A stretch of 33,760 nucleotides of DNA from positions 99,845 to 133,604 of the forward strand of contig VBKF01000103.1 in the NCBI GenBank assembly GCA_005888095.1, written 5' to 3'. How positions within the stretch are numbered: the first letter of the stretch is position 1; each line of letters starts with the position of its first letter. Below are positions 6,165-33,760 of the stretch, one piece after another. The stretch is from Deltaproteobacteria bacterium (GTDB lineage Bacteria; Desulfobacterota; Binatia; DP-6). Below the pieces are notes generated by a model, which saw only the letters and a list, made by a program, of their open reading frames with translations, made no database searches and was not told the origin of the DNA. The position numbers were made by a program, and so were the translations under genes.

Positions 6165-7168
6165 TGGCTCGCCTCGAGACGCTCGACGACGCGCAGCCGC
6201 GCGCTGCGCGCCCGCGGGTTCCTCGCGACCTCCGCCGGCGCGGGGCGGAGCGGCCGGCGGGTCGAGAGCCGGACCTTGGCGCTCCAGCCGCAGGCGCAGC
6301 GCACGAGCCCGGGAGGGCAGAGGCAGTCCGCCGCCCAATGGCGGAAGGCTTCCTTCACGCGCCGGTCCTCGAGCGAGTGGTAGGAGAGGACGGCCAGGCG
6401 GCCACCGGGACGCAGCAGCTGGTAGCCGTCGGTCAGGAAGCGTTCGAGTGCGCCCAGCTCGTCGTTGACGGCGATGCGCAGCGCCTGGAACGTGCGGGTG
6501 GCGGGATGGATTCCCCCCCGGCCGGGGCCGACCACGCCCGACACGACCGCCGCGAGCTGGCCCGTGGTCCGGAGCGGACGGGCGCGCGCGATGGCCCGGG
6601 CGACGGCTCGCGCCCGCCGCTCCTCGCCGCACTCCGCGATCAGGCGCGCCAGCCGCGCCTCCGGCCAGCGGTTGACGATCTCGGCCGCGGTGCGCGTGCC
6701 GCTCGGGTCCATCCGCATGTCGAGCGGCCCCTCGCGCTGGAACGCGAAGCCGCGCTCGGGGGTGTCGAGCTGAAGGGAGCTGACGCCGAGGTCGAGGAGC
6801 ACGGCGTCCGCGGCGTCCCATCCCTTCTCCGCCAGGATCGCGGCCGCATCGGCGAAGCTCGCCTGCCGAAGGTCTATACGGTCGCTCTCGGCCCGCAGCC
6901 GCTCGCGCGCGCGGGCGAGCGCCTGAGGGTCACGGTCGAGGCCGAGGAGGCTAGTGTCGGGTGCGGCGCCGAGGAGCGCCGCCGCGTGCCCGCCGAGCCC
7001 TACGGTCGCATCGACGAGACGGGCACCCGGTCGGGGGCGCAGCCACTCCACCACCTCCCCCAGCATCACCGGCACGTGGGCAGCGCCCACCGGCCCGATG
7101 CCCGTCTCGTTCGTCGTCGGTGGCACGTTCAGCGTGCGACGCCCGGCCATAGCGCTCGCCGCCCCCAC
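6161..7168 (-). CDS. rsmH: RsmH (MraW), 16S rRNA m4C1402 methyltransferase
   Basis: S-adenosylmethionine-dependent enzyme that N4-methylates C1402 of 16S rRNA. The 335 residues show the family opening HVPVMLGEVVEWL (31-43), the SAM-binding loop VDATVGLGGH (52-61), LLDLGVSSLQLD, RGFAFQREGPLDMRMD and LSYHSLEDR near the C-terminus. The N-terminus is about 20 residues longer than usual. GTG at 7168 is preferred because GGAGGT sits 11 bases upstream; ATG at 7150 has only a weak site. It is the second gene of the dcw operon, 47 bases after mraZ. Confidence 0.96.
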   Translation of the reverse strand: MGAASAMAGRRTLNVPPTTNETGIGPVGAAHVPVMLGEVVEWLRPRPGARLVDATVGLGGHAAALLGAAPDTSLLGLDRDPQALARARERLRAESDRIDLRQASFADAAAILAEKGWDAADAVLLDLGVSSLQLDTPERGFAFQREGPLDMRMDPSGTRTAAEIVNRWPEARLARLIAECGEERRARAVARAIARARPLRTTGQLAAVVSGVVGPGRGGIHPATRTFQALRIAVNDELGALERFLTDGYQLLRPGGRLAVLSYHSLEDRRVKEAFRHWAADCLCPPGLVRCACGWSAKVRLSTRRPLRPAPAEVARNPRARSARLRVVERLEASQ

Positions 7169-7215
7169 CGTTCACTCCCACCTCCGCCCTGTGGCGGTTT
7201 GCTCTCACCTAATAA

Positions 7216-7668
7216 TCACAGTTCGAGCTCTCCCAGGAGCTCGGGGTTCTCGAGCACGACGCGCTCGTCCTCTTCGAACACCTGCCGCCAGGTCTCCTTG
7301 TTCCAGATGCGAAACTTGTCGATGTCGCCGGCAAACATCGCGTCGCGGCCGAGGTCGGCGTACGCCCGGAGCAGCTCGGGAACGAGGATCCTGCCCTGGG
7401 CGTCGAGCTGGCACTCGTGTGCCCCCGAGACGTAGTAGTTCGCGAAGCCCACCACCCGCGGATGGAACCGGTTCTTGCCGAGGATGCGCTTCTCCAGCCG
7501 CCGCCAGGCGCCGAGCGGGTAGACGTCGAGGCAATGGCGGCCGCGGTGCGCGAACTTGGTGACGACAAGGCGCTCTTCCTGGAGCCCGGAGAGCGCCTCC
7601 CTGAAGCGGGCTGGGATGGCGACCCGCCCCTTGTCGTCCACCACGTGCTCGAAGTTCCCGCGAAACAT
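7216..7668 (-). CDS. mraZ: MraZ, dcw operon transcriptional regulator
   Basis: DNA-binding protein of the SpoVT/AbrB fold that in E. coli represses its own dcw operon. The 150 residues hold two tandem AbrB-like half-domains: VDDKGRVAIPARFRE (about 10-24) and LDAQGRILVPELLR. ATG at 7668 gives the canonical MFRGNFEH start. It is the first gene of the operon, preceded by a strong promoter and GTGGGG repeats that look like its own binding sites (listed separately), so autoregulation is likely by analogy with E. coli. Length and sequence are typical. Confidence 0.96.
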   Translation of the reverse strand: MFRGNFEHVVDDKGRVAIPARFREALSGLQEERLVVTKFAHRGRHCLDVYPLGAWRRLEKRILGKNRFHPRVVGFANYYVSGAHECQLDAQGRILVPELLRAYADLGRDAMFAGDIDKFRIWNKETWRQVFEEDERVVLENPELLGELEL

Positions 7669-7689
7669 CCCATTGGCCGGGGAGGGCTA

Positions 7690-7736
7690 CCCCACAATGC
7701 TTCACTCCACAACCGCCACGCCCCACCTCTCCCCAC
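7690..7736 (-). promoter_or_regulatory. MraZ-box-like repeat array in the dcw leader
   Basis: Read on the minus strand, GTGGGG occurs at 7736-7731 and again exactly 10 bases on at 7726-7721. It is followed by the variants GTGGCG (7719-7714) and GTGGAG (7710-7705) and another GTGGGG (7695-7690). MraZ of E. coli binds TGGG-type direct repeats with a 10-base period near the transcription start. The array begins just after the predicted start site of the promoter at 7748-7777 and ends 22 bases before the mraZ start codon. Binding by MraZ is inferred. Confidence 0.7.
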
Positions 7737-7747
7737 AGCTGCCCGCG

Positions 7748-7777
7748 GCTATACTCCGCGCGCCCGCAGGCTGTCAA
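7748..7777 (-). promoter_or_regulatory. Sigma-70-type promoter of the dcw operon
   Basis: On the minus strand a perfect -35 TTGACA (7777-7772) is followed after 18 bases by TATAGC (7753-7748), which matches four of six -10 bases. The predicted start site is near 7740, giving a leader of about 70 bases that contains the GTGGGG repeats. In this GC-rich context a full TTGACA upstream of mraZ is unlikely to be chance. Confidence 0.75.
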
Positions 7778-7839
7778 GGCGCCTCCCGCCCGTCGGACTA
7801 AAGCGTAAGCCGCGCGGGCCCTCCCAGCAGCGTTGGAGC

Positions 7840-7862
7840 CGCGCGCGGCTTTGCCGCGCGCG
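7840..7862. repeat. Perfect GC hairpin between dcw promoter and rnpB
   Basis: An inverted repeat with a 10-base-pair stem (7840-7849 with 7853-7862) and a TTT loop lies in the 155-base gap between the dcw promoter and the RNase P RNA 3' end. There is no T-run on either side, so it is not a standard intrinsic terminator, although it could still separate the two units. The rest of 7778-7955 shows no gene. Confidence 0.5.
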
Positions 7863-7955
7863 AGCGACGGGGTCCGGGGGCATCGGAGGAGCGCAGGGCG
7901 CGGCCCAGCCGCGCCCGAGCACCGCACGGGCCCCCGGGAGAATTTGAAATAAACA

Positions 7956-8349
7956 CGCCGGAGGAGGTCTGTAAGCCGGATTCTGTCCCCCCGCTCACCG
8001 GGCGGGGGCAGCAGCCATTCGTCTGGTCCCCCGGTTGCCCGGGGGATCGAGCGACCGACCCGAGGGAACGGGCGGACCACCCGCGCCCGGCCTGGTGGGC
8101 CGGGCCTCCCTCCTACTCGGTCTTGCTCCGGGTGGGGTTTGCCGAGCATCCGTTCTCACGAACGGATCTGGCGAGCTCTTACCTCGCCTTTTCACCCTTG
8201 CTCCAGGCTCGTGGCCTGGGGCGGTCTCCTTTCTGTGGCACTTTCCCCCGATCGCTCGAAGCCGCCGTTAGCGGCCACCCTGCCCTGTGGAGTCCGGACT
8301 TTCCTCCCGCCGCGCTGCGCGGCGGGCGGCTGCTCGACCTCCTCCGGCG
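7956..8349 (-). ncRNA. rnpB: RNase P RNA, bacterial type A
   Basis: Catalytic RNA of RNase P, which removes tRNA 5' leaders. On the minus strand the sequence has the universal 5' signature GAGGAAAGTCCGGACTCC (around 8308-8291), ACAGAAAGGAGACCGCC, a segment close to E. coli AAACCCCACCCGGAGCAAG, and the 3' signature ACAGAATCCGGCTTACAGAC (7986-7967). The ends are set by a perfect 14-base-pair P1 helix: 8349-8336 pairs with 7969-7956. The length is about 394 nt, normal for type A. It begins 18 bases after the stop of the zinc-ribbon gene. Just past the 3' end is an A/T-rich stretch (7937-7955) but no clear terminator hairpin. Confidence 0.97.
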
Positions 8350-20945: not shown

Positions 20946-22982
20946 TCAACGTTGCCGGCCCTCCCCCGCCAGGCGCGCGATCACGGCCACCAGCGCGGCG
21001 GGCGCGACCGGCTTCGGCACATGGGCCTGGTACCCGGCGAGGAGCGCCCGCCTGCGGTCCTCGACCCGTGCGTAGGCGGTGAGCGCTGCGGCTGGAATCC
21101 GACCTCCGTCCTCGGACGCCAGCGCCCGGACCCTCCGGATGAGAGCGTAGCCGTCCTCCCCGGGCATGCCGACGTCGCTCACCAGGACGTCGGGTCGGAA
21201 GGTTGCCAGCGCCTCGAGCGCCTCCACGGACGAGGCCGCCACCGCGACCCGGGCGCCGCACTGCTCGAGCACCGCGCTGACCGCGTCGCGCGCGCCGGCT
21301 TGGTCGTCCACGACCAGCACCCGCACACCAGCCAGCGTCGGGACGCTGTCGAGCGTCGCGTCCGCGATCGGCCGTGGCTCCGCCTCGCTCCTCTGGACCG
21401 CTTCCCGGATGGCGGCGAGCGGAAGGTCCACGGTGAACGTGGCGCCGCGGTCCTCGCCGGGGCTCTCGGCACGCACCGTGCCACCGTGCATCTCGACCAG
21501 CTGGCGAACGATCCCGAGCCCGATGCCGAGGCCGCCATGCACCCGCGTGGTCGTGCTGTCGGCCTGGCGAAAGGGCTCGAAGATATGCGGCAGGAAGCCC
21601 TCGGTGATGCCCTTGCCCGTATCCGCGACCGTGATGCGGGCGGACGACTCCTCCGTCTCCAGCCGCACCGTCACCCGGCCGCCCTTCGGCGTGAACTTGA
21701 TCGCATTCGACAGGAGGTTCCAGACCACCTGCTGCAGCCGGGCGGCGTCCCCCGACAGCGGGCCGACTTCGGAGTCGAGCACGCACTCCACGCCGAGCCG
21801 CTTGGCCTCGGCTGCCGGCCGCACCGCCTCGAGGGCCGCCCGGATCACCGACGCGAGGTCGACCGGACCGGTGTCGAGTCGGAGCTTTCCTGTGACGATG
21901 CGCGAGACGTCGAGCAGGTCGTCGATCAGCCGGGTCATCACCCGCGTGTTGCGGTCGAGCGTCTCGAGCGCGCGGGCGGTGGTGGATTCGTCGAGCGCCC
22001 GGCGCCGGAGCAGCTCCGCCCAGATGAGCATGGTGCTGAGCGGGGTGCGGAGCTCGTGCGACAGGGTCGCGAGGAACTCGTCCTTGGCGCGGTTGGCCTC
22101 TTCGGCCTCCGTGCGGGCGGCCTGCTCGCGCTCGAGGAGGTGCGCGCGCTCCTCCTCGGTGCGCTGCCGCTCCGTGACGTCATGCAGGACGATCGTGTGC
22201 AGCGTCTGCCCGACGGCCTCGGCCGGCGTGATCGAGACCTCGATCGAGAATTCCTCGCCGTCCGAGCGGCGCCAGACGAGCGTGCCGGACGTGCCGCCGC
22301 TGCGCAGCCGGTCGCCCCCCTCCGTGAAGCGGATCTGCTCGGCATGCCCGGCCTGGAACCGCTCCGGGACGAAGCGATCGATCTTCTGCCCGAGGGCCTC
22401 CGCGGCCGAGCAGCGGAGCATCCGCTCCGCGGCCGCGTTGAAGACCACGATGCGCCGCTCCGCGTCGATGGTGATGATCGCGTCCGTCACCGAGCCGATG
22501 ATGCCCGTCAGGCGGGCCTCGCTGGCGCGCAGCACCTCGGCCGAGGCCCGGCGCTCGATCAGCGGTAAGGCGAGCGCGATGCACTGATCGCCGGCGTCGC
22601 CGAGCAGAGCCATGCCGATGATCAGGACGGGGATGCGGCTGCCGTCTCTCCGCAGGTACTCCTTCTCGAACGGCGAATAGGCACGGCGGCGCTGGAGCCG
22701 TCCGATCGCGCTGGCGTCGAGCGAGCGGTGCTCGGGCGGTGTCAGCTCGATCCAGTTGAGGCGCCCCGCCTCGAGGTCCTCGCGCGAGCAGCCCACCATC
22801 CAGAGGAACGCGTCGTTGGCCTCCCGGATGGCGCCGTCGAGGTCGCCGACGATCACGCCGATGACGCTCGATTCGAAGACGGCCCGCAGGCGCCCCTCGG
22901 CCACTCCCAGCTGTTGGCGCAGCGACTCGACCTCGGGCGCGCGGCCGCTCAGGGCCCGGAGCATTCGGGGGACGTCCCACAT
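20946..22982 (-). CDS. Hybrid histidine kinase, PAS-PAS-HisKA-HATPase-REC
   Basis: Cytoplasmic sensor kinase of 678 residues with no membrane segment. PAS 1 lies at about 30-145 and PAS 2 at about 155-272. Next comes HisKA with LSHELRTPLS (phospho-His309), then the ATPase domain with N-box NLLSNAIKF (Asn426), DTGKGI (454-459) and GLGIGLG. The C-terminal receiver has VVDD (Asp559, Asp560), the phospho-acceptor Asp603 in SDVGMPG, and Lys657. All catalytic residues are present. ATG 22982 is preferred for its GAGG site; ATG 23003 is possible. The internal receiver and lack of an output domain imply a phosphorelay to another protein. Confidence 0.93.
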   Translation of the reverse strand: MWDVPRMLRALSGRAPEVESLRQQLGVAEGRLRAVFESSVIGVIVGDLDGAIREANDAFLWMVGCSREDLEAGRLNWIELTPPEHRSLDASAIGRLQRRRAYSPFEKEYLRRDGSRIPVLIIGMALLGDAGDQCIALALPLIERRASAEVLRASEARLTGIIGSVTDAIITIDAERRIVVFNAAAERMLRCSAAEALGQKIDRFVPERFQAGHAEQIRFTEGGDRLRSGGTSGTLVWRRSDGEEFSIEVSITPAEAVGQTLHTIVLHDVTERQRTEEERAHLLEREQAARTEAEEANRAKDEFLATLSHELRTPLSTMLIWAELLRRRALDESTTARALETLDRNTRVMTRLIDDLLDVSRIVTGKLRLDTGPVDLASVIRAALEAVRPAAEAKRLGVECVLDSEVGPLSGDAARLQQVVWNLLSNAIKFTPKGGRVTVRLETEESSARITVADTGKGITEGFLPHIFEPFRQADSTTTRVHGGLGIGLGIVRQLVEMHGGTVRAESPGEDRGATFTVDLPLAAIREAVQRSEAEPRPIADATLDSVPTLAGVRVLVVDDQAGARDAVSAVLEQCGARVAVAASSVEALEALATFRPDVLVSDVGMPGEDGYALIRRVRALASEDGGRIPAAALTAYARVEDRRRALLAGYQAHVPKPVAPAALVAVIARLAGEGRQR

Positions 22983-23050: not shown

Positions 23051-24133
23051 TCAGCCCGCCGCTCGGGGCCGCCGCCTTCCGGCGAAGTGGGGGAGGACCT
23101 CCCTGCCGAAGCGCCGCAGGGAGTCGACGATGTCGTCGTGCCGGAGGAAGAGCATCAGGTCGACGCCCTGCGACTCGTACCACTCGATCGACTCGATGCA
23201 GCGCCGCGCACCGCCGACGATCACCGAGCGGCGGTCGACGAGCTCCTGGAGGTCGCGCTCCCGGTACGCCTCGCGCGCGATGCGGTCGCGGTACCAGGCG
23301 TAGCTCTGGTCCGCCGACAGGGTGCCCAGCGAGGCGTAGACCAGCTCCACGAGGTTGGCGTACCAGGTGGCGCCCTCGCCCGCCCGCGCGGCCGCGTCGG
23401 CGTCGTCGCGGCCGCAGAACAGGATCGTGAAGGCGGCGAACTGGTCGTGGATGAACTCGCCGACCGGCCTGGCGCGCGCGATCGCGTCGCGGTAGGAGCG
23501 CACCTTGGCGTCCATTCCGAACGGGTCGGAGAGCGAGAAATGCATGAAGCCGATGCCGCGCTCGCCGGCGAGGATCGCCGACTCCGGCTGCGTGCCCGAC
23601 ATCCAGATCGGTGGATGCGGCTTCTGGACCGGCTTCGGCAGGACGTTGCGCGGCGGCATCTTGAAGGTCGGCGAGTCCCAGGAGAACTCGTCCTGCGTCC
23701 ACATCCTCGGGATCATGCGCAGGGCCTCGTCCCACTGCGCGCGCGTCAGGCTCGGGTCGATCCCGAAGCCCTCGAGCTCGAGCGCCGACGCCGACCGGCC
23801 GGTGCCGAAATCCAGCCGGCCCCTGCTCATGATGTCGAGCGTCGCGGCCATCTCCGCCGCCCGGATGGGATTGTTGTAGTTGAAGGGCAGCAGACGGACG
23901 CCGTGCCCGATGCGGATCCGCGACGTGTGCTGCGCCACCGCCGCCAGCCACACCTCGGGCGCGGACGCGACCGAGAACTGATCCAGGAAGTGATGCTCGA
24001 CCGAGAAGACGTGGGAGAAGCCCACCTCTTCGGCGACCCTGACCTGTTCGAGCGCCTCCCAGAAGCCGTCGGACACCGACGTCTCCGTCCACGGACGCGG
24101 CACCTCGATCTCGTACAGGAGCCCGAACTGCAT
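23051..24133 (-). CDS. LLM-class flavin-dependent monooxygenase (luciferase-like)
   Basis: A 360-residue TIM-barrel oxidoreductase of the bacterial luciferase family, expected to use reduced FMN or F420. Typical elements are MQFGLLYEIE, HVFSVEHHFLDQF (about 41-53), GHGVRLLPFNYNNPIRAAEM (77-96), SRGRLDFGTGRSASALE (103-119), PPIWMSGTQPES, and a C-terminal GVDLMLFLRHDD. ATG 24133 has GAGGAGGG just upstream. The reading frame is open without a stop into the PIN-like remnant upstream, so that site decides the start. The substrate is unknown. It lies downstream of the PIN/DUF433 remnant on the same strand, 68 bases before the first kinase. Confidence 0.92.
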   Translation of the reverse strand: MQFGLLYEIEVPRPWTETSVSDGFWEALEQVRVAEEVGFSHVFSVEHHFLDQFSVASAPEVWLAAVAQHTSRIRIGHGVRLLPFNYNNPIRAAEMAATLDIMSRGRLDFGTGRSASALELEGFGIDPSLTRAQWDEALRMIPRMWTQDEFSWDSPTFKMPPRNVLPKPVQKPHPPIWMSGTQPESAILAGERGIGFMHFSLSDPFGMDAKVRSYRDAIARARPVGEFIHDQFAAFTILFCGRDDADAAARAGEGATWYANLVELVYASLGTLSADQSYAWYRDRIAREAYRERDLQELVDRRSVIVGGARRCIESIEWYESQGVDLMLFLRHDDIVDSLRRFGREVLPHFAGRRRPRAAG

Positions 24134-24442
24134 TCGCCCTCCTCGCTCGGGGCGGTTGCCGCGAAGCGCGCCCGCCGGCCGCCCGCAACATCGCCCGGGC
24201 GGGCGTTCGCGGCAAGCGGCCGCCGCCATCGCCCGCCCGACGGGCAGTTCGGAGGACCGGCGTCGAATCCGCTCGTCCTTCGTGAGGACGACCCAGCCGC
24301 GCTGTCCCACCACCGCGAGCCACTGGACGTCCGGGGCGTCGGCGGCGAAGTGGTCGTCGTGAACCTCGACGCGCATACCCGCTTGCCGCAGAGCCTCGGG
24401 CACGATGCGGCGCCCGAGATACCGGTCAACGAAATAGACGGC
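24134..24442 (-). pseudogene. PIN-like (DUF5615/VapC-type) toxin remnant
   Basis: The frame just after the DUF433 stop reads VYFVDRYLGRRIVPEAL, then HDDHFAADAPDVQWLAVVGQ and GWVVLTKDERIRRRSSE, the N-terminal half of a PIN-like nuclease with its acidic residues. No ATG, GTG or TTG sits where the domain should begin; the codon there is GTC. After about residue 70 the family resemblance ends in Ala/Arg-rich sequence and the frame runs straight into the monooxygenase gene. An ATG at 24511 inside the DUF433 gene could start a longer form. It is best read as a toxin that has lost its start and its C-terminal half. Confidence 0.6.
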
Positions 24443-24443
24443 C

Positions 24444-24827
24444 TCAGGCCGCTTCGGCGAGGCGCAACTCGCAGCGGATCGCCTCTTCGATCTCCTCCGG
24501 CGCGCGGCCATAGTCGGCGGCGAGGTCCTGGATCGACTCGCCCGCCTTGTACCGCTCGGCGATCACGGCCGTGGGAATGCCGGACCCCACAAGGACAGGG
24601 CGACCGTACTGCACCCTCGGGTCCATCATCACCACCCGGGGCTCCTCGGCGTCGTGCTTGCGGGTGAAGGGGTAGAGCCGGACCGGCGCACCGGCCGGGT
24701 TCCGATCGATCCGCCGGAAATGCGCCTCCAGCATGGCGCGCATCGCCATCTGCCCAGCCTTCGAGGCGTTAATCAGGCCGCCGTAGCGGTCGATGAAGAG
24801 ATCCAAGCCACTTCGCGCACAGAACAC
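24444..24827 (-). CDS. DUF433 antitoxin-type protein
   Basis: A 127-residue protein. An N-terminal section (about 10-60, IDRYGGLINASKAGQMAMRA) leads to a DUF433 domain at about 67-122 (MDPRVQYGRPVLVGSGIPTA, then RYKAGESIQDLAADYG), which carries a predicted HTH. DUF433 genes usually precede PIN-like DUF5615 toxins, and here the PIN remnant follows immediately. The start is GTG 24827 with a poor ribosome site; a later TTG is possible. With the toxin degraded, the antitoxin may be a leftover or a free regulator. Confidence 0.82.
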   Translation of the reverse strand: MFCARSGLDLFIDRYGGLINASKAGQMAMRAMLEAHFRRIDRNPAGAPVRLYPFTRKHDAEEPRVVMMDPRVQYGRPVLVGSGIPTAVIAERYKAGESIQDLAADYGRAPEEIEEAIRCELRLAEAA

Positions 24828-24919: not shown

Positions 24920-27229
24920 TCAAGGAATAGCGACAGGCTCTGTCTTGGCGAGACACGCCGCGGGCAGACGCGGACGAGGCGTCGCGACGAGCTCCGCAAC
25001 CGCTGCGACCAACGCGGCCGGGTCAACCGGCTTCGACATGTGGACCTGGTAGCCTGCCGCCAGTGCCTGCGCCCGGTCCTCCGTGCTGGCGAACCCCGTC
25101 AGCGCCAGGGCCGGGACTTGCCCCCCGCGCTCGCTGGCGAACGTACGGACCTTGCGGATGAGCGCATAGCCGTCCTCGCCCGGCATGCCGATGTCGCTCA
25201 TCAGCACATCGGGCGTCATCCGTTCGAGCGCCTCAAAGGCCTCGCCCGCCGATGCTACGGTCGTTACCGCCGCCCGGCTTTCCGCGAGCACCGCGGTGAG
25301 CCACTCGCGTACGTCAGCTTCGTCATCCACGACCAACACGCGCACGCCCTCGAGCACGAGGTGGCAGTCGTACGGGACCTCGCCGCCCGCCGTGGGGCTC
25401 ACGTTCTCCCAACGGCTGAGCTCCCGGGATAGAAGAGGCAGGGTCACTCTGAACGTCGTGCCCTTGTTCTCTCCTCGACTTTCCGCCCGCACGGTGCCTC
25501 CATGCAGCTCCACCAAGTGCCGCACGATCGCTAGCCCGAGTCCGAGGCCGCTGTGCGCCCGAGTGCTAGTGCTGTCAGCCTGGCGGAAACGCTCGAAGAC
25601 GTGCGGCAAGAAGTCGGGGCTGATGCCTTCGCCGGTGTCGCTCACGACAATCTCGGCACGGGAGTCGACGACCTCGAGCCATACCGCGACGCGTCCGCCC
25701 TTTGGGGTGAACTTGATCGCGTTGGTGAGGAGGTTGCAAATTACCTGCTGCAGACGTCCCGGATCCCCGAGCACGCGACCGTGCCGGAAGCCGCGGAGCA
25801 TGGACTCGAGCTCGACACTCTTGGCCTGGGCCGCGGGACGGACGACGTCCACGGCTGCCTCGATTGCCTCCGCGAGATCGACGGGCTGCGTCTCAAGACG
25901 CAACTTGCCCGCCACCACGCGCGAGACATCGAGCAGGTCCTCGATGAGGTGCTTCTGCGCCTTCGCGCTGCGCTCGATCGTCTCGAGAGCACCCGCGGTC
26001 TTCGTGGCATCGAGCTTTCCCCTCCGCAGCAGGTGAACCCAGGTGAGGATCGCCGCGAGGGGTGAGCGTAACTCGTGCGAGAGCGTCGCCAGGAACGCGT
26101 CTTTGGCGCGATCGGCGGCCTCGGCCACAGCGGCGGCGGCGGCGCGGACCTCGGTCCGCTGGATCGCGAGCGCGATCCGATCACCGGCGAGTCGGAGCAG
26201 CTCTACCTCTTGCTGCTGAAACTTCCTCCGGCGCATGCTCCCCACATGCAGCACGCCAATCACGCGCCCATCAATCTGGAGCGGTACGCCCGCCAACGAG
26301 TGGAGGCCCTTCTCGCGGATGAAGCGGTTCGCAACCTCATAGTTGTCCACGTCCTCCATGACAATGGGACGCCGCTCGGCCGCAATGCGGCCCGCGAAGC
26401 CCTGGCCAACTGGGATGCGCATTTGGTGCTGCTGCTCCTCCTTCAATCCGAGCGCGGCACGCACGCGAAGCTCCCCCTCCCCCCCCTCCTCCGCCAGCTG
26501 CCGCAGTAGGACCACCGCCGTGTCCGTCTGCAGTTCGTTTCGCAGGCGGGTTAGCAGCTCGCGGAGAAGATCATCCAGGGGGAGATCAAGCGCCATGTCG
26601 GTGAGGGCCTGTACGCGCCGGACGAGCGCAGTGGCGGTCTCGGCCTCGGCCCGGGCGGCCTGTTCACTCGCAAGCGCCTCGGCCAGACGCGTCGAGATCT
26701 GCTGTTCTCGCCTGGTACTGAAGTTTTCCTCCAGCAGCGTATTGCCGAGCGTCCGAAGCAGCTCCCCGTACAGGGCCAGCCGCTCTCCCGGCAGAGGCCG
26801 CTCCTTCCGGCCTACGGCCCACACTATCTCGAAGGAGCACCCGCTGTTCCGGGCGAGCCGCTCGAGCGCGTGCTGATCCATGAACGTGGTCAGCGCATAC
26901 CCGGCCACCGCCACACCGACGATCTCGCCGCTGAGCATGAGCGCAGTGCCGACCACCGCGAGGCCGTCGTGGTTTTCGACCACGACCGGCGGTGGCATGT
27001 CCGCCTGGGTCAGGCAGCGTCGGATGCAGGCGGCAAAGATGCCGAGATCATGGTAGCCGGGCGTGAAGAGCTCGAAGAGGTCGGTCGGATGCACCGGCCC
27101 GCAGATCAGGCGCGCGTCGGTGTCGTACAGTTGGATCGTAAGATGGGTGACGGCGGCGTACTTCTCGAGCGCCTTCGTCCACGCCCCTCGCTCAAAGAGC
27201 GCCGCCTCCGCCTGCCCATCCGAGGACAT
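24920..27229 (-). CDS. Hybrid histidine kinase with PocR-like and GAF sensor domains plus REC
   Basis: Cytoplasmic kinase of 769 residues. The N-terminal sensory region (about 14-165) has paired Cys69/Cys72 and AVVGTALMLSGEIVGVAVAG, resembling a PocR-type ligand-binding domain; this name is tentative. A coiled coil (170-205) and a GAF domain (about 208-356) follow, with IPVGQGFAGRIA and GVPLQIDGRVIGVLHVG. HisKA has LSHELRSPLA (His385); the ATPase has NLLTNAIKF (Asn503), DTGEGI and GLGLGLA. The receiver has Asp635/Asp636, phospho-Asp679 and Lys733. The kinase and receiver are clearly related to those at 20946-22982. ATG 27229 gives the domain-consistent start but has a weak ribosome site. Confidence 0.92.
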   Translation of the reverse strand: MSSDGQAEAALFERGAWTKALEKYAAVTHLTIQLYDTDARLICGPVHPTDLFELFTPGYHDLGIFAACIRRCLTQADMPPPVVVENHDGLAVVGTALMLSGEIVGVAVAGYALTTFMDQHALERLARNSGCSFEIVWAVGRKERPLPGERLALYGELLRTLGNTLLEENFSTRREQQISTRLAEALASEQAARAEAETATALVRRVQALTDMALDLPLDDLLRELLTRLRNELQTDTAVVLLRQLAEEGGEGELRVRAALGLKEEQQHQMRIPVGQGFAGRIAAERRPIVMEDVDNYEVANRFIREKGLHSLAGVPLQIDGRVIGVLHVGSMRRRKFQQQEVELLRLAGDRIALAIQRTEVRAAAAAVAEAADRAKDAFLATLSHELRSPLAAILTWVHLLRRGKLDATKTAGALETIERSAKAQKHLIEDLLDVSRVVAGKLRLETQPVDLAEAIEAAVDVVRPAAQAKSVELESMLRGFRHGRVLGDPGRLQQVICNLLTNAIKFTPKGGRVAVWLEVVDSRAEIVVSDTGEGISPDFLPHVFERFRQADSTSTRAHSGLGLGLAIVRHLVELHGGTVRAESRGENKGTTFRVTLPLLSRELSRWENVSPTAGGEVPYDCHLVLEGVRVLVVDDEADVREWLTAVLAESRAAVTTVASAGEAFEALERMTPDVLMSDIGMPGEDGYALIRKVRTFASERGGQVPALALTGFASTEDRAQALAAGYQVHMSKPVDPAALVAAVAELVATPRPRLPAACLAKTEPVAIP

Positions 27230-27537
27230 TACGGCAGGTCGGCCGGGTAAACATAGTCTCCGTCTCCCAGCCGGTGGATTCCGTAGATCATGTAAGACCT
27301 GGTCGGCCCCCCTTCCGTTCTCAAGCAAGTGCCGTGCCGAGCCGTAGCGTGATCAGCAGACGCCCCCCGCGGATCACTACGGGAGCAAGGTTAACTACTA
27401 CCGCAGTTTGGGTAGAGACGGGCCGCGACGGCGCTCCTGTTGACCTCCTCGGCATGGCGCCGCCGGGCGGTTCCGTTCGCGGCTGTACATCGGCTGTTCA
27501 CGATTTGCCCTCTCGAGGAACGGACACCCCAGGCTTA
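27230..27537. other. 308-base gap between kinase and kaiC with no recognised feature
   Basis: Both neighbours are on the minus strand, so this should hold the leader of the kinase and the end of the kaiC transcript. It is locally less GC-rich. I see no convincing promoter hexamer pair, terminator hairpin or small gene. The kinase frame stays open to a TTG at 27328, but that extension lacks recognisable sequence. Confidence 0.5.
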
Positions 27538-29052
27538 CTACGTCCCGCTCGGGCGTCGCTCCGGCGAACGGGCTAGGAGACCGTGGTAGCCCGCGAAGGG
27601 GGTCGGCTGAACGTTCGGCGAGATCGTCCGCGCGAGGACGCGCATGCCCACACCGTCCACGACCTCGCACTCACGGGTCACGCGGCTGATCGGGCCCCCC
27701 CGCATCTTGGTGACCGTCACGGCCAGCCGAGAGACGTCGCCCAGCTCGACCCAGTTGAGGAGAATGATGTTGTCCACGAGCGAGCTGACGCCGTAGTCCC
27801 CCATCATCGACGACATGCCGAACATCTCGGGGTTCTCGTGGTTGTAGATCGCCGTGACCTGGTGCTCCTTCATGAGCGCCACGAGCGCGTGGAAGAAGTC
27901 CCTGAAGGTGCGACCCGCAGGGCCCAGGCTCGAGCCATACGTCGAGAGGCTATCGATGACCGCGCGCGTAGGCTTGAACTCCCGCACGATCTGCTCGATC
28001 CGGTGGAAGTGTCGATCGATCTCCATCTCCTGCGGCGGGTCGTAGTAGAGCTGGACCGTGCCCCGATCGATCGCAGCCTGGAGGTCGATCCCGATGCTCG
28101 CGGCGTTCCGTAGCACCTGGGCTGGCGGCTCGTCCAGCGTCAGCATGAGGCCGCGCTCCCCGAGGCGGGCCCCTTCGGCGGCGTAGTGCAGGCTCATGAC
28201 GCTCTTCCCGACCCCCGAAATCCCGACCACGAGGGTCGTGCTGCCCACGAAGTACCCACCGCTCAACATCTCGTCGAGGCCGGGGATGCCGGAAGAAATC
28301 CGCGTCGTCGGATCAAAGGAGGCGGCGAGCTCGCGGGTCGTGTCGCGGGGCGCCTGCACGCGCCGGTAGACCTCCAGCCCTTGGCCGTCGACGATCCGAA
28401 ACGAGTGGCGTCCCATCTGGTACTCGTGGCCACGCGACTTCACGATTTCGATGGACCGCTGCACGGCACGCTCGAGGGGCTCGAGCCTGAGCCGCATGAC
28501 CGTGTCGGCAATGAACTCCTCCGGCGCGGGAGCGGCGAGGCGCACCCCGTCCCGTGCGACCACTTCCAGGACCAGCATGGCGGTCAAGTTCTCGCGGTGT
28601 AGCCCCTCGGCGAGGATGTGGAAGCCATCGCGAGGGTCTCGGCTCCCGTCGTTGCCCAGAGCCAGCTGGCCAAAACTATCGATGAAAATTCGCCGCGCCC
28701 CGATCTTCCCCGCTTCGTCGAGAAGCAGGCTGTCGGCCTGCTGCAACTCCTGCTGGAAGACCGAGCGCGTCGTGAACACCATCTTGAGCCGGCCCTGGCG
28801 CTCGAGCTCGGGCAGGTCCCAGCCGAACCTCGCCACGTCGCGGATGAACTTGTCCGGGGAGACCTCGAACAGCACGATCAATCCCGGCTCGTGGAACTCG
28901 GTCGCGCCACGAAAGACGAACTCCGCCCCCAACGTGCTTTTCCCCGTACCAACCGCTCCCTCCACCAGGGTCAGGTTGCCACGGGGGATTCCGCCGCCGA
29001 GGATGGCGTCGAGCCCTTTGATCCCTGTCTTGGTGAAATCCCGTTCAGCCAT
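27538..29052 (-). CDS. kaiC: KaiC-like two-domain ATPase/autokinase
   Basis: A RecA-fold double ATPase of 504 residues. The CI half (1-about 240) has Walker A GAVGTGKST (32-40) and RIFIDSFG (121-128). The CII half (about 245-485) has Walker A GISGVGKSV (277-285), RAVIDSLST and YNHENPEM. The stretch GVSSLVDNIILLNWVE aligns with the KaiC phosphosite region, placing Ser423-Ser424 where cyanobacterial KaiC has Ser431-Thr432. CI has FEVSP with one Glu (Glu63) instead of the usual Glu pair. No kaiA or kaiB is present. ATG 29052 overlaps the upstream winged-helix stop by 8 bases, so the two are coupled. A signalling role with the nearby kinases is likely; clock function is not implied. Confidence 0.93.
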   Translation of the reverse strand: MAERDFTKTGIKGLDAILGGGIPRGNLTLVEGAVGTGKSTLGAEFVFRGATEFHEPGLIVLFEVSPDKFIRDVARFGWDLPELERQGRLKMVFTTRSVFQQELQQADSLLLDEAGKIGARRIFIDSFGQLALGNDGSRDPRDGFHILAEGLHRENLTAMLVLEVVARDGVRLAAPAPEEFIADTVMRLRLEPLERAVQRSIEIVKSRGHEYQMGRHSFRIVDGQGLEVYRRVQAPRDTTRELAASFDPTTRISSGIPGLDEMLSGGYFVGSTTLVVGISGVGKSVMSLHYAAEGARLGERGLMLTLDEPPAQVLRNAASIGIDLQAAIDRGTVQLYYDPPQEMEIDRHFHRIEQIVREFKPTRAVIDSLSTYGSSLGPAGRTFRDFFHALVALMKEHQVTAIYNHENPEMFGMSSMMGDYGVSSLVDNIILLNWVELGDVSRLAVTVTKMRGGPISRVTRECEVVDGVGMRVLARTISPNVQPTPFAGYHGLLARSPERRPSGT

Positions 29053-29485
29053 AGGCGTCTTCCTCGCTCGCTCGCCCCGATCGACCCGTGCGACTGTCGC
29101 GGCGCTTCCTGCCAGCTTCGGGCGCGCCCCCCGGCCAGGGCCGCCGTGCGAGAGCCTGGAGCAAGGCTCGGCGTCCTGCTGGCGTGGCGGCGACCTCCAG
29201 GAGAGAGTTGAGCCAATCCGCAAGCGGGCCTCCGGACGTGAGGACGTACATCCGGGCGCCGGACTTGGGGTTCTGCGATTGTGTCAGGAGGCCGGCGCCG
29301 ATGAGGGTGTCGAGCGATCTGCCGACTTGCTGGACGTCGTAGGCCACGAAGGCGGCGAGCTGTTCACTCGTCAGGAGCGCCCGGGGGTGCCGCCGGAAGA
29401 AGCGCAGTAGATCGAGATCGCAGGGCTGGCCCAGGCGAGACTTGGCCTGGTCAAGTAGATGCTTGATGTCCGTTGAGTTTCGCAT
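29045..29485 (-). CDS. Winged-helix protein coupled to kaiC
   Basis: A 146-residue protein. Residues about 20-100 form a winged helix-turn-helix: [21 protein letters not shown], then [18 protein letters not shown] and a wing [12 protein letters not shown] helical tail [17 protein letters not shown] and a basic Arg-rich C-terminus follow. It resembles small MarR/ArsR-type transcriptional readers, but no family can be named with confidence. Its stop overlaps the kaiC start by 8 bases, implying the two proteins are made together and may interact. An inverted repeat lies 20 bases upstream of its ATG and may be its operator. Confidence 0.78.
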
Positions 29486-29504: not shown

Positions 29505-29526
29505 GCTCCCGGCACGAGGCGGGAGC
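29505..29526. repeat. Inverted repeat upstream of the winged-helix-kaiC operon
   Basis: GCTCCCG (29505-29511) and CGGGAGC (29520-29526) form a 7-base inverted repeat with an 8-base spacer, centred about 30 bases before the winged-helix start codon. Position and spacing suit a dimeric regulator operator or a leader hairpin. Confidence 0.4.
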
Positions 29527-29842: not shown

Positions 29843-29890
29843 GGCGCTCGCAGCGAACGGCGCCGAGGTGTAAGTGGCTGATTCTGCGAG

Positions 29891-29963
29891 TGGCCAGGGG
29901 CGGAGTCGAACCGCCGACACCGTGATTTTCAGTCACGTGCTCTACCAACTGAGCTACCTGGCC
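29891..29963 (-). tRNA. tRNA-Phe (GAA)
   Basis: A 73-base cloverleaf on the minus strand. Acceptor GGCCAGG pairs with CCTGGCC, the D arm contains AGCTCAGTTGGTAGAGC, and the anticodon stem CGTGA/TCACG encloses CTGAAAA (anticodon GAA). The T arm has GGTTCGACTCC and the discriminator is A73 at 29891. CCA is not encoded. An integrase fragment lies at its 3' end. Confidence 0.96.
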
Positions 29964-30059: not shown

Positions 30060-32435
30060 TCAGGGCAGCAGCTGCGCGTTCCCCGACAGGGCCACGGCGC
30101 CCGGTCCGGGGAGGTCTCCCGCGGAGTCGACGAGTATGTTGTACGAGGGCGGGATGCAGAAGATGCTCACCAGCGTGGAGGCGACGGGCGGCCCGCCGGT
30201 GGTCACCCCCGTGGCCGGCGAGCCGGTCTCGAAGATCGTCCGTGCCACGTCAGCCGTGGTGAAGGCGCCCGAGGTCCGCTGCCCGCAGCTGGTGAAATTG
30301 GTGACCGTGGCGCAGTCCGCGTTCATGTTGGCGGGGTTGCACTGCACGGGGAGGCACGGCGCTCCGCTGCACGTGTTGCACGGCGGGCCAGGCTGGCACG
30401 CGCAAGCCGTGCCCGACGGCGAGCCGTTGCACGTGCGAGCGAACGAGTTCGTCGTCTTGTTCTTGCAGAAGCCGCAGAAGACGTTGCTCTGATCGGGCGC
30501 GTTGATCGCCGTCTTCGACAGCGTCGCGGTGTCCAGCAGGAAGCCGATCGCCAGCGAGCCGATGGCGAGGCCGCCCGGCGGCGGGCACTCGTGGCTCGTC
30601 GGGAAGTCGCCGTTCGGGCTCAGGGACTCCGGCGTGCACGCGAGTCCGTCGTTCGGACCGCCGTTGCACTTGCTCGTGCTCGAGTTGCAGATGGGGCAGG
30701 GCTGGACGAAGGTCTTGCAGAAGCCGCTCGGGCAGTCCGCATCGGTGATGCAGCCCTTGCCGTTGTTCGCCCCGCCGACACAGGCGCCGGTCTCGCAGGT
30801 CCCGTTGGCCCCGCAATCCGCGTCGGAGCAGCAGGTGGCGCCGTTGCCCGTGCACCGCGCCGTGTCGTTGGTGCAGGTGCCGCCGCCGGCACACGCTCCC
30901 AGGTTCCCGCACGCGTTGCCGCAGGGCGCTCCCGGGCTGGTGCCGCCCACGCACCGGTTCGCCAGCTGGTCGCCGCTGAGGAAGAGGTTGTCGTTGAGCG
31001 GCAGGTTGATGGTGTGAGCCTCGCCCGTCGAGCAGTCGGCCGTGCCCGTCGCGGTTGCCGTGATCGTGAGGATGCCGCAGGTGCTGCTGGGGGCCTGCAT
31101 GTGGGCGCTGTTCGGGATGGGCAGGGGCGGTCCGAACAGGCAGCCGGCGGTCGTGCAATGGAGGAACTTGCACGTGCCGCCCGGGCAGTCGAAGTTGCTG
31201 ATGCAGGGGTTGTGGTGGTTCGAGCCGCCGGAGCACAGGTTGCCGCCCGCCTCGGCCGAGCTGGTCCCGGTGAGCGTGAGCGTGCTGCCGTCGCAGCAGG
31301 CGTGGATGACGTTGAAGAAGTTGTCGGGGACGGCTGCGGGCAGGGGCACGGCGACGCCCGCGCCACCGAAGTAGAGGCCGCTGCAGGCGAGCGAGAAGAA
31401 GTTGGCGTTCGTGTCCGAGGCGAGGTGGCCGCAGCTCCCCGCCCCGATCACGGTCTTGAACTTGTACTCGAGCGGCGTCCCGCCGGAGCAGCTGCAGGCC
31501 ATCCCCGGCGGCGGGCAGGTGCTCGACGTGGTGCTGGTGCTCGTGGTCGTGGTGGTCGTGGTGGTGGTCGGGCACGGGTAGACGAGGACGTTGGCCCCCT
31601 CCACCTGGGCCAGGACGCTCGCGCCGAGGGCGGTGCGGTTCGCGGGCGACAGACACGGCTGCGAGCAGATCCCCTTGGTAGTCAGCTTGGTCATGGCGGC
31701 GTTGTACTTCTCGACGGCCGACTTGTGCTTCACCGGGTCGTTCTCCTCGCACACGTTCTCGTCGAAGTCCTTGCCGGCGAAGAACTGGTCGGCCATCTTG
31801 ATGTGGCACTTGATCACCGCGGCGGTGAGCTTGCCGAGCTCCTTGCCGACGCTGTCAGCGCACTTCAGCTGATCTCCGCTATGCGGGACCCAGCCGGCAT
31901 CGTCGCCCGAGGCGTCGATCAGCATGGCCCCCATCGTCGAGTCGCAGTAGACGTTGCCGTTCTGCGCGTCGAGCGAGAGCGGGTTGGTCTTGTCCGCGAA
32001 GAGCGTGGTCTCCTCGGCGGACGCGAACGTGAGCTCGGTCGAGGTGCAGAGCGGCGACACCTTGGCGATGGCCGCGTCGAGCCTCTCCTTCGCGGACTTC
32101 CCGTTGTTGGGCCCTTTCTCGCAGGCCTCGTCGTCGACCGGCGCAGCCTTGAAGGCCGCGTCGGCCTGCTTCTTGTGGCACGTGATCACCGCCTTGACGG
32201 CCTTGCTGAAGGCCTTGGCGAGGGCGTCGGCGCACTTGAGCGTGGCCGCGACGTTCGGCGCCGACGGGTCGTCCTTGCTGCCGGGGACGCACCCGGTGTC
32301 GTCGCTGGCGCAGGACATGGCTCCGCCCGCGTCGCTGCAGTCGAAGTGCTTGCCCGGCCCCGGGGGGGTTGCGATCGCGCCGCCGGCGGTGAGGAGGAGC
32401 ACGCTACCCAAGGTTGCTGCGAGGAGGCGCTTCAT
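30060..32435 (-). CDS. Large secreted Cys-rich protein with duplicated four-Cys domain and poly-Thr linker
   Basis: 791 residues, function unknown. A signal peptide (LLAATLGSVLLLTAGGAIA, cleavage near 22) is followed by two copies of a helical four-Cys domain at about 66-130 and 190-257. The matching Cys are 68/86/105/130 and 192/210/229/257, and CH occurs at the second Cys of each. A Thr/Ser linker follows (290-306), then about 480 residues rich in Cys with repeats such as CxGGxNxGxxCxxDxDCPxGxC. The C-terminal block has VFCGFCKNKT, PCNTCSGAPC and LPGPGAVALSG. ATG 32435 has GGAG 7 bases upstream. Likely extracellular and disulfide-bonded. It is a paralogue of the next gene upstream. Confidence 0.85.
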   Translation of the reverse strand: MKRLLAATLGSVLLLTAGGAIATPPGPGKHFDCSDAGGAMSCASDDTGCVPGSKDDPSAPNVAATLKCADALAKAFSKAVKAVITCHKKQADAAFKAAPVDDEACEKGPNNGKSAKERLDAAIAKVSPLCTSTELTFASAEETTLFADKTNPLSLDAQNGNVYCDSTMGAMLIDASGDDAGWVPHSGDQLKCADSVGKELGKLTAAVIKCHIKMADQFFAGKDFDENVCEENDPVKHKSAVEKYNAAMTKLTTKGICSQPCLSPANRTALGASVLAQVEGANVLVYPCPTTTTTTTTTSTSTTSSTCPPPGMACSCSGGTPLEYKFKTVIGAGSCGHLASDTNANFFSLACSGLYFGGAGVAVPLPAAVPDNFFNVIHACCDGSTLTLTGTSSAEAGGNLCSGGSNHHNPCISNFDCPGGTCKFLHCTTAGCLFGPPLPIPNSAHMQAPSSTCGILTITATATGTADCSTGEAHTINLPLNDNLFLSGDQLANRCVGGTSPGAPCGNACGNLGACAGGGTCTNDTARCTGNGATCCSDADCGANGTCETGACVGGANNGKGCITDADCPSGFCKTFVQPCPICNSSTSKCNGGPNDGLACTPESLSPNGDFPTSHECPPPGGLAIGSLAIGFLLDTATLSKTAINAPDQSNVFCGFCKNKTTNSFARTCNGSPSGTACACQPGPPCNTCSGAPCLPVQCNPANMNADCATVTNFTSCGQRTSGAFTTADVARTIFETGSPATGVTTGGPPVASTLVSIFCIPPSYNILVDSAGDLPGPGAVALSGNAQLLP
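31519..31569. repeat. Low-complexity tract encoding the Thr/Ser linker
   Basis: Seventeen consecutive codons, all Thr or Ser apart from one interruption, written almost wholly as GTG/GTC/CTC/CTG on the plus strand. It marks the border between the helical Cys domains and the long Cys-rich part of the secreted protein. Confidence 0.75.
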
Positions 32436-32508
32436 GGGCTTTCTCCGTTGGTGTCTCCCTCGGGGCGGCAGGCCGGGAGGGACCGACTACGAGGAGCCGG
32501 CAGCTCGC

Positions 32509-32538
32509 GGCTTACCCCCCCCGGCGCGAGGCTGTCAA
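32509..32538 (-). promoter_or_regulatory. Candidate promoter of the Cys-rich gene at 30060
   Basis: On the minus strand a perfect TTGACA (32538-32533) sits in an A/T-rich patch, with TAAGCC (32514-32509) 18 bases on. The -35 is convincing; the -10 is weak. A promoter here would let the downstream paralogue be expressed independently of the upstream one. Confidence 0.35.
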
Positions 32539-32565
32539 TATGTAATTTACTCGACTGCGCGCGGA

Positions 32566-33760
32566 CTATGGGAGCGCTTGCGCCATGCCGGGAATGGCCA
32601 CCGCGCCGGGACCGGGCAGGTCGGCCGCCGCGTCGACCGTCTGGGTGAAGCTCGGCGGGATGCAGAAGATGCTGACCAGCGTTCCGGGCTGCGCGGGGCC
32701 CCCCGTCGTCAGCGCTCCCGCGGGCATGCCCGTCTCGACGATGGTCCTCGAGACGTCGTTGGCGGTGAAGGCGCCCGCGGTCCGCTGGCCGCAGCTCGTG
32801 GAGCCGGTCACGCTGGTGCAGTCCGAGTCCAAGGCGCACGGTACGGGGAGGCACGGCGCGGAACCTGGACACGTCGCGCAGGGCAGGCCCGGCGCACAGC
32901 CGCAGCTGGCGCCCGTCGCCAAGCCGTTGCACCGCCGGGCGAAGGTGTTGAGCGTCTTGTTCCTGCAGAAGCCGCAGAAGACGTTCACCTGACCGGGCAG
33001 GTCGACCGCGGTCTTCGTGACCGTGCCCGAATCGAGCACGAAGGAGATCGGCAGGGCGCCGATGTTGCTGGCGGGCGGGGGCGGACAGTCGTGGCTGGTC
33101 GGATAGTCGCCATCGATCGCGGTGTCGCCCGGCGTGCAGGCGAGGCCGTCGTTGGCGCCGCCGTTGCACGTGTTGGTGGTCGCATTGCAGATCGGGCAGG
33201 GCTGGATGAAGGTCTTGCACGCACCGCCGCCCGGGCAGTCCGCGTCGGTGATGCACCCGAAGTCGGCATTCGAACCGCCCACGCATACGCCCGGGTTGCA
33301 CGTGCCGGACTGTATGCAATCGTCGCCGGCAGCGCTGCAGCAAACCGTGTTGGGCGCTTGCCCGCCGCCGCTCGCGCAGCGGCTCGTATCGTTGACGCAG
33401 GTACCGCCCGGACACGAGTTCTGCGCGACGGTGCCGCAGCCTCCAGGGCCGGTGCAGGGCGCGCCGGGCGTCGACCCGCCAACGCACCGCATCGGCATGA
33501 GGTCGCCGGTCAGGAAGAGCTGGGAGCTGAGCGGCACGCTGAGATTGCTGGTGCTGCCGGCATTGCAGTCGCCCATGCCCGACGCATCCGCGGACAGCAC
33601 ATTGATGACGCACGTGCTCGTGGGCGCCCCATTGTTGTTGGGGACCGGGAGCGGCGGGCCGAACAGGCACCCGGCCTTCGTGCACTGGAGCAGCTTGCAC
33701 TTCCCGCCCGGGCAGTCGCCGTCGGTCGTGCACGCGTTGTGATGGTTGGCGCCGCCGGCG
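32566..33760 (-). CDS. Cys-rich secreted protein paralogue (partial, N-terminus beyond window)
   Basis: The last 397 residues of a protein whose 5' end lies outside the window; the frame is open to the edge. It aligns with the C-terminal half of the gene at 30060 over its whole visible length: GCLFGPPLPVPN, CNGGANDGLACTPG, DYPTSHDCPPPP, VNVFCGFCRNKT, STSCGQRTAGAFTANDVSRT, LVSIFCIPPSF and LPGPGAVAIPGMAQALP. Cys positions are mostly kept. The tandem arrangement shows a local gene duplication. The stop is TAG at 32566, 130 bases before the downstream paralogue. Function unknown; predicted extracellular by analogy. Confidence 0.85.
   Translation of the reverse strand, partial: AGGANHHNACTTDGDCPGGKCKLLQCTKAGCLFGPPLPVPNNNGAPTSTCVINVLSADASGMGDCNAGSTSNLSVPLSSQLFLTGDLMPMRCVGGSTPGAPCTGPGGCGTVAQNSCPGGTCVNDTSRCASGGGQAPNTVCCSAAGDDCIQSGTCNPGVCVGGSNADFGCITDADCPGGGACKTFIQPCPICNATTNTCNGGANDGLACTPGDTAIDGDYPTSHDCPPPPASNIGALPISFVLDSGTVTKTAVDLPGQVNVFCGFCRNKTLNTFARRCNGLATGASCGCAPGLPCATCPGSAPCLPVPCALDSDCTSVTGSTSCGQRTAGAFTANDVSRTIVETGMPAGALTTGGPAQPGTLVSIFCIPPSFTQTVDAAADLPGPGAVAIPGMAQALP

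Follow-up and report, generated by a model that had tools for sequence, protein, structure and literature searches.

Do three neighbouring genes for a winged-helix protein, a KaiC-family ATPase and a PocR hybrid histidine kinase make up a signalling system of their own, centred on KaiC and lacking the other proteins of the cyanobacterial clock? The genes lie in a stretch of 33,760 nucleotides of contig VBKF01000103.1 from a Deltaproteobacteria bacterium (the whole stretch is called the window here), and a first-pass annotation had suggested that they form a complete input-timer-output unit. All three are encoded on the minus strand. The winged-helix gene (29045-29485, 146 residues) was delimited as an open reading frame (ORF), and its product was assigned a MarR-like fold from a sub-threshold Pfam match to MarR_2, an AlphaFold2 model and Foldseek comparison. 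It is followed by the gene for a two-domain KaiC-family ATPase (27538-29052, 504 residues), recognized by Pfam, alignment and tree, and by that for a PocR-GAF-HisKA-HATPase_c-REC hybrid histidine kinase (24920-27229, 769 residues), recognized by Pfam. The start of the KaiC gene was placed by homology at ATG 29052, the listed ORF having begun at TTG 29223, and the kinase was taken to begin not at TTG 27328 but at ATG 27229, from which point the family members align. The first-pass annotation had given the coordinates of all three genes correctly.

The KaiC protein was scanned against 84,980 genomes, which confirmed 184 relatives, and the best 80 loci were kept. Among these 80, identity to the window KaiC breaks sharply, with 29 loci at 62-71% and the remainder at or below 38%. 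The 29 close loci are labelled Rokubacteria, Acidobacteria, Nitrospira and Gemmatimonadetes, plus single Chloroflexi and Betaproteobacteria bins. A winged-helix gene stands directly upstream of KaiC, on the same strand, in 26 of the 29; in the other three the contig begins inside KaiC (L056, L060) or KaiC is truncated (L054). A PocR kinase gene lies directly downstream of KaiC in 22 of the 29, with its frame cut short in L044. In L033 and L053 the downstream kinase is missing where the contig ends, and in L053 a PocR kinase and a KaiC remnant sit upstream instead. No other neighbour family occurs in more than 4 of the 30 loci formed by these 29 and the window (cassette-like ORFs set aside). 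The arrangement is far beyond chance, and the counts of 26/29 and 22/29 rule out that it is fortuitous or unique to this contig. The neighbourhood search thus found the trio in soil bacteria that are only distantly related, and the objection that the neighbourhood might be confined to one contig, with genes of unrelated phyletic pattern, clearly fails. That the three genes are a conserved module is well supported by this comparative evidence; in that sense the description of a complete signalling unit stands, and the three genes probably do form one signalling unit.

The spacing of the genes is conserved as well. In the window, the TGA of the winged-helix gene and the ATG of KaiC share an 8-nt overlap (ATGGCTGA, 29045-29052, minus strand), which recurs in L033, L035, L036, L041, L055 and L057, and in each of the 24 loci where the spacing could be measured, KaiC starts between -14 and +44 nt from the winged-helix stop. 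Translational coupling of the two genes through this overlap is likely. The kinase gene follows KaiC on the same strand, as had been noted before, although at a distance of 308 nt; in the 20 relatives that allowed measurement the gap ranges from -20 to +28 nt. In L047 the winged helix and KaiC form one frame; this is a single case in which the first KaiC strand is lost, and we regard it as weak evidence of fusion.

The winged-helix profile was also followed through whole genomes. It gave 29 matches in 24 of the 26 cassette genomes (window included), 28 of which adjoin KaiC, the remaining one lying at a contig end. In the order of the L035 genome (Rokubacteria), 8 of 60 genomes hold 12 matches, seven of them shared with the cassette-genome set, and all 12 lie beside a KaiC (with broken frames in L166), beside a KaiC remnant (L165, L168) or at a contig end. 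The winged-helix searches of the window's phylum and of the classes of the L040 and L044 genomes, like the KaiC search of the window's class, scored at most 13 or 20 candidates per genome, so that absences in them are incomplete. Within these bounds, the L040 class (299 genomes) has 4 genomes with the winged helix and the L044 class (198 genomes) has 2; one of the two L044-class matches (E 1.5e-4) has no accompanying KaiC and is likely to be a generic one. One of the four in the L040 class belongs to a divergent full cassette, L180, with a winged helix of 34% identity over 59 residues, a KaiC of 46% and a PocR kinase that ends in a receiver-like stretch. In the 297 genomes of the window's phylum, the only strong match is that of the window itself, and two weak ones (E 3.9e-4 and 6.1e-4) have no KaiC alongside. 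The matches in G015, G303 and G797 (E 1.5e-4 to 6.1e-4), none of which adjoins a KaiC, were accordingly set aside as generic helix-turn-helix (HTH) proteins. PocR profile matches occur in 23 of the 26 cassette genomes; the second copy of G135 and the copy of G118 lie at contig ends, and a KaiC tail precedes the latter.

The 26 cassette KaiCs, including that of the window, form one clade (Shimodaira-Hasegawa-like approximate likelihood ratio test, SH-aLRT, 99) drawn from four named phyla, two further genomes and the window. The tree holds rows matching at least 430 residues plus seven added by hand, and comes from a short search with long branches outside the clade. Pairwise distances correlate between winged helix and KaiC (r 0.86, 23 loci), between KaiC and PocR (r 0.88, 17 loci) and between winged helix and PocR (r 0.72, 18 loci), with 0 of 5000 permutations as high in each case. 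The KaiCs nearest to that of the window are Rokubacterial, and in the L164 and L167 cassettes, from the order of the L035 genome, the kinase catalytic half shares 52-53% identity with that of the window kinase. Since the 117 other genomes of the window's class yielded no close KaiC, their KaiCs being at most 35% identical over full length, the window's cassette was probably acquired laterally. Vertical descent in this lineage is disfavoured, with the winged helix unmatched in these 117 relatives and matched only weakly, twice, in the 297 genomes of the phylum. The cassette has probably passed between phyla as a unit. Carriage by phage was considered and rejected, as 12 pattern matches in viral contigs included no relatives.

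Some loci depart from the common arrangement in other ways. Decaying cassettes were seen in L165, L168, L053, L059 and L166, as a winged helix with no more than a KaiC remnant, as a partial copy in tandem or as a KaiC whose frame is broken. L167 carries a second KaiC (6318-8276 of that locus, 33% identical) directly after its PocR kinase. The commonest non-cassette neighbour, in 4 of the 30 loci, is a short ORF family upstream of the winged-helix gene in the Rokubacteria loci L033, L036, L055 and L057; its strand varies between frames, and it is perhaps no gene.

The window KaiC is a two-domain protein, matched by PF06745 in two stretches (E 2.9e-89). Its residues were compared in an alignment of 24 rows (A2), which leaves out the fused, broken or cut KaiCs of L047, L053, L054, L056, L059 and L060. 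The Walker A motifs of the CI domain (residues 32-40; 28933-28959, minus) and the CII domain (residues 277-285; 28198-28224, minus) have invariant glycines and lysine in all 24 rows. Downstream of the CI motif the catalytic pair reads E63-V64: the first glutamate is kept throughout, and the second is lost in 24/24 (valine in 23, threonine in 1). In CII, D307-E308 take the place of the glutamate pair, and this Asp-Glu is invariant. The C-terminal motif PFxxYxxLxxRxPxR (residues 485-499; 27556-27600, minus) aligns with the end of clock KaiC, in what is presumably the region where its A-loop lies. Because the rows do not align beyond this A-loop-like C-terminus, no KaiA-binding tail is evident in the aligned proteins. 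The best PDB profile match had an E value of 1.4e-89, and chain 8dba, which we take to be R. sphaeroides KaiC, scored lower (E 2.9e-55); the NCBIfam cut-offs for clock KaiC were missed (TIGR02655, 215 bits against 546; NF006799, 299.6 against 408). S423-S424 (codons 27781-27786, minus) are serines in every row and align with the phosphorylatable pair of clock KaiC, S431/T432, which makes them candidate phosphosites by alignment, while threonine is absent at the place of T426 (numbering of clock KaiC after PMC5520375). Autokinase activity of the cassette KaiC is plausible.

The AlphaFold2 model of the upstream protein is a winged helix, with 10-residue means of the predicted local distance difference test (pLDDT) of 86-96 over residues 21-110. 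The top Foldseek matches are MarR-family regulators, several of them with DNA, at E values from 1.7e-3 with none below 0.001 and template-modelling (TM) scores of 0.39-0.49 for the first five. The Pfam gathering score for MarR_2 was not reached (22.7 bits against 27), matches to MarR_2 and HTH_20 remaining sub-threshold. In an alignment of 25 family members (A1, leaving out L047, L052, L054, L056 and L060), 16 match MarR_2 at E ≤ 0.01. Model secondary structure and conservation place the winged HTH core at residues 21-82 (29240-29425, minus), with a helix at 21-32 and the recognition helix at 51-63. Binding of DNA by this protein is plausible.

A palindrome, CTCCC-N10-GGGAG, lies 21-40 nt upstream of the winged-helix ATG (29506-29525, minus). 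It shares a half-site with a promoter block that is conserved in six Rokubacteria operons, where CTCCC..GGGAG stands between -35-like and -10-like elements. In these six loci the palindrome statistic was 25 of 36 pairs, where random places gave 9.6 on average (0 of 20000 as high), the loci being related and so not independent. The window contains two instances of CTCCC-N0-10-GGGAG where 1.34 would be expected, and when the upstream 160 nt were shuffled 1000 times, 108 of the shuffles equalled the 7-nt arms; the result is weak. The palindrome is thus offered as a possible operator, and as a lead only towards autoregulation. A single operator common to all loci was rejected, as nine Acidobacteriota and Nitrospirota upstream regions fail to align and only the six Rokubacteria regions do. 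In the Nitrospira loci L051 and L038, the winged-helix gene is immediately preceded by the end of a short tandem repeat of GATCTCC units.

In the window kinase, PocR, GAF, HisKA, HATPase_c and REC all score above their Pfam cut-offs, which places it among the hybrid kinases. Its PocR sensory domain (26726-27199, minus) scores 36.9 bits against a PF10114 cut-off of 23.9 and was modelled by AlphaFold2 with a pLDDT of 88.8. The model resembles a GAF domain and has a long helix at the C terminus; fold matches were weak, with CodY among the best and none at E ≤ 0.001, and a search by sequence for a solved PocR homologue gave none that was convincing (two thioredoxin chains at E 0.22). A PocR-kinase match was found in 23 loci; the kinase alignment (A3) leaves out the cut or short frames of L039, L041, L044, L045, L046, L059 and L060, and the PocR alignment (A4) leaves out L044, L046 and L060. 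Among 17 family kinases, PocR was matched in 15 (PF10114, E ≤ 0.001), HisKA in 12, HisKA_3 in 4 and REC in 7. Conservation is found mainly in the first ~170 residues, which hold the PocR domain, and the catalytic half is exchanged across the family. The window kinase is 59% identical in its catalytic half to a nearby second hybrid kinase, PAS-HisKA-HATPase-REC by Pfam (20946-22808, minus), an identity that fits local exchange of this half.

Parts of the trio also occur elsewhere. In a tblastn search of 72,556 plasmids with the window's PocR domain, only two gave a match at E ≤ 1e-5. Both plasmids are from Variovorax; in each the match lies directly after a KaiC of 38-39% identity, and the kinases score 72-82 bits against the cassette PocR profile. 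In Chloroflexota, a divergent winged helix stands directly upstream of a single-domain KaiC in 11 of 13 loci (L083-L108; E 3.7e-8 to 0.0028), and Armatimonadota L061, sister to the cassette KaiC clade, has a weak upstream winged-helix match (E 0.0065). Winged helix-KaiC and KaiC-PocR are thus two pairings that recur and can occur one without the other; the cassette unites them. KaiC beside a histidine kinase is ordinary in itself: of 33 distant KaiC loci of the two-domain type, 14 have such a kinase within 1 kb downstream and 4 have one upstream. It is the winged helix and the PocR domain that distinguish this unit. Two side observations concern these outlying loci. A kinase lies within 1 kb downstream in 2 of the 11 Chloroflexota loci with the winged helix, and on plasmid 4 of Variovorax sp. 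WDL1 (L177, 6557-8848) an IS481 transposase divides the PocR-kinase gene from a distinct gene for an ATP-binding protein, so that the KaiC-linked kinase there looks interrupted.

Collectively, these data suggest a KaiC-centred cytoplasmic operon that is independent of KaiA and KaiB and acts as a ligand-gated switch with two outputs and no clock. We infer every contact and activity in this reading, and we judge its prospects of being right to be evenly balanced. KaiC would form the usual hexameric ring, whose state would change as ATP is turned over and S423/S424 are autophosphorylated. The PocR domain, GAF-like in fold, may sense a small organic ligand, and the same domain would contact KaiC. 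The kinase half would serve as an interchangeable output (or input) arm acting through ordinary response regulators; SasA, which reads KaiC in cyanobacteria, offers an analogy. The winged-helix protein would be held or released by KaiC and would act on DNA, probably at its own promoter too, and the KaiC hub would in this way join a sensor kinase to a DNA-binding reader. The stronger claim, that the trio represents a distinct and undescribed class of KaiC signalling in bacteria, is advanced tentatively and with confidence just short of even. The operon would be mobile, and its KaiC ring, free of KaiA and KaiB, would link a ligand-sensing PocR kinase, whose catalytic half can be exchanged, to a winged-helix transcription factor dedicated to it. 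This factor would bind KaiC directly, and its DNA output would bypass the two-component relay.

The trio might instead be a reduced KaiC timer, an hourglass or an oscillator, with a rhythm of KaiC phosphorylation at its core, the kinase as input and the winged helix as output. Both P-loops, the CII Asp-Glu, the invariant serine pair and the A-loop-like C-terminus would suit such a device, and KaiC2-type cyanobacterial proteins also have two serines according to PMC5520375. The partners of a clock are missing, however. KaiA was found in none of the 26 cassette genomes and was detected in the positive control, Synechococcus elongatus; KaiB was found in 7 of the 26 and is lacking in 19, and it never lies within the cassette. 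The KaiB stretches of six of these seven genomes hold a KaiC of another type (28-42% identity), and in the seventh (L119) no KaiC was present within the short stretch fetched. In the window's own genome, listed as 100% complete, both KaiA and KaiB are absent, so that what the first-pass annotation had said of their absence holds for the entire genome. The substitution of the second CI glutamate by valine or threonine in 24/24 rows and the lack of threonine at the T426 place argue further against a timer, which we consider highly improbable. Of the proposed input-timer-output unit, a conserved three-gene unit without KaiA or KaiB therefore survives; "timer" is unsupported, given the loss of the CI glutamate and the absence of KaiB from the cassette. 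Nothing supports timekeeping, and there is no sign of oscillation.

Two further alternatives concern the winged-helix protein. It could serve the KaiC ring as an adaptor or in its assembly and not read DNA, with output by the kinase alone. Its most conserved element is the helix at residues 21-32 (CDLDLL, majority conservation 0.82) and not the recognition helix, which carries Asp or Glu at one place; 9 of 25 members match the dimerization domain PF08100, the overlapping genes suit a stoichiometric subunit, and in L047 the protein is fused in frame with KaiC. An adaptor is harder to reconcile with the positive net charge of 22 of the 25 members, with best fold matches to MarR regulators, several with DNA, and with the palindromic promoter block of the six Rokubacteria loci, and we find this explanation unlikely. 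The same promoter block, together with the Variovorax KaiC-PocR pairs that lack a winged helix, would agree with a repressor that merely autoregulates the operon, leaving KaiC and the PocR kinase as an ordinary pair with no physical link to it. Yet the winged helix is kept where the kinase is missing (L034, L036, L055, L057), is fused to KaiC once (L047) and, in divergent form, precedes single-domain KaiC in 11 of 13 Chloroflexota loci; these observations point towards a direct partnership with KaiC, and a mere autoregulator seems distinctly unlikely.

Several findings weigh against the KaiC-centred switch proposed above. Binding of DNA by the winged-helix protein must be called uncertain, because its recognition helix is the less conserved one (majority 0.53) and acidic at one place in 24 of the 25 members; the PF08100 matches count on the same side. 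The kinase is not obligatory in the cassette, since four Rokubacteria loci (L034, L036, L055, L057) and L056 have none downstream although the sequence continues, and three of these five genomes lack such a PocR genome-wide. The Variovorax plasmids keep KaiC-PocR without a winged-helix match, and the Pfam PocR model misses the Variovorax kinase even at E 0.01. Rows within the KaiC clade group largely by phylum, and shared inheritance can also yield the distance correlations. The palindrome was found after the fact, and most loci are contigs of metagenome-assembled genomes.

Several other features surround the cassette in the window. A tRNA-Phe gene (29890-29963, minus) lies on the same strand about 400 nt upstream; insertion at this gene was considered and rejected, as the window holds no evidence of attachment (att) sites and no second tRNA copy of at least 16 nt. 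On the other side, a DUF433 protein (24444-24827, minus) followed by a PIN_10-like domain (24140-24511) resembles a toxin-antitoxin pair, and the PIN frame continues stop-free into a luciferase-like monooxygenase (23051-24511), as a fusion or through a lost stop. Two adjacent frames, 30060-32435 and 32566-33600 (within 30060-33760, minus), have a common cysteine-rich repeat pattern (NDGLACTP, PTSH, CPPP); the former has a Thr/Ser run and no Pfam match.

Among the open-access literature matches listed, whose coverage is incomplete, no description of the trio was found. The cassette supplies a KaiC that lacks the clock proteins and has two other conserved partners, one of them probably a reader and the other probably a sensor. 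What KaiC does in the absence of KaiA and KaiB thereby becomes a biochemical problem with three proteins. That the PocR domain stays constant while kinase halves are swapped behind it gives a hint of where contact with KaiC may be sought, and genetic work on the KaiC-PocR part of the unit could start from the plasmids of two Variovorax strains.

With the cyanobacterial KaiABC-SasA/CikA-RpaA clock, the trio shares a homologous two-domain KaiC, a KaiC-linked histidine kinase and the A-loop-like C-terminus. It differs in having no KaiA and, in the cassette, no KaiB, in reading Glu-Val/Thr in place of Glu-Glu in CI and Ser-Ser in place of Ser-Thr, and in its winged-helix partner and the PocR domain of its kinase. 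The KaiBC systems of Rhodobacter and Rhodopseudomonas resemble it in their linkage to a histidine kinase, whereas the partner there is KaiB, and we know of no winged helix in them. In R. sphaeroides, a histidine kinase lies in an operon with kaiBC, according to PMC5520375. The accessible part of PMC11832031 describes myxobacteria with multiple kaiC, no kaiA and few kaiB, in which A-loop-like sequence is kept and its function is unstudied, and mentions no winged-helix or PocR partner; the Myxococcus KaiC in our tree (L074) falls far outside the cassette clade. For archaea, KaiC-like ATPases have been put forward as hubs of signal transduction (Makarova, Galperin and Koonin 2017, as represented in citing papers). 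The cassette differs from these in its bacterial two-domain lineage, its own winged-helix family and its PocR kinases, and the six archaeal KaiC loci among the best 80 gave no winged-helix profile match at E ≤ 0.05. In the KaiC-kinase operons of Rhizobium and Variovorax plasmids the KaiC gene overlaps the kinase gene; these operons have no winged-helix match, and the Rhizobium kinase no PocR match. Finally, the window kinase passes PF10114 and so belongs with the PocR/MEDS sensory-domain proteins (Anantharaman and Aravind 2005, as cited elsewhere), among which it appears here as a subfamily that adjoins KaiC.

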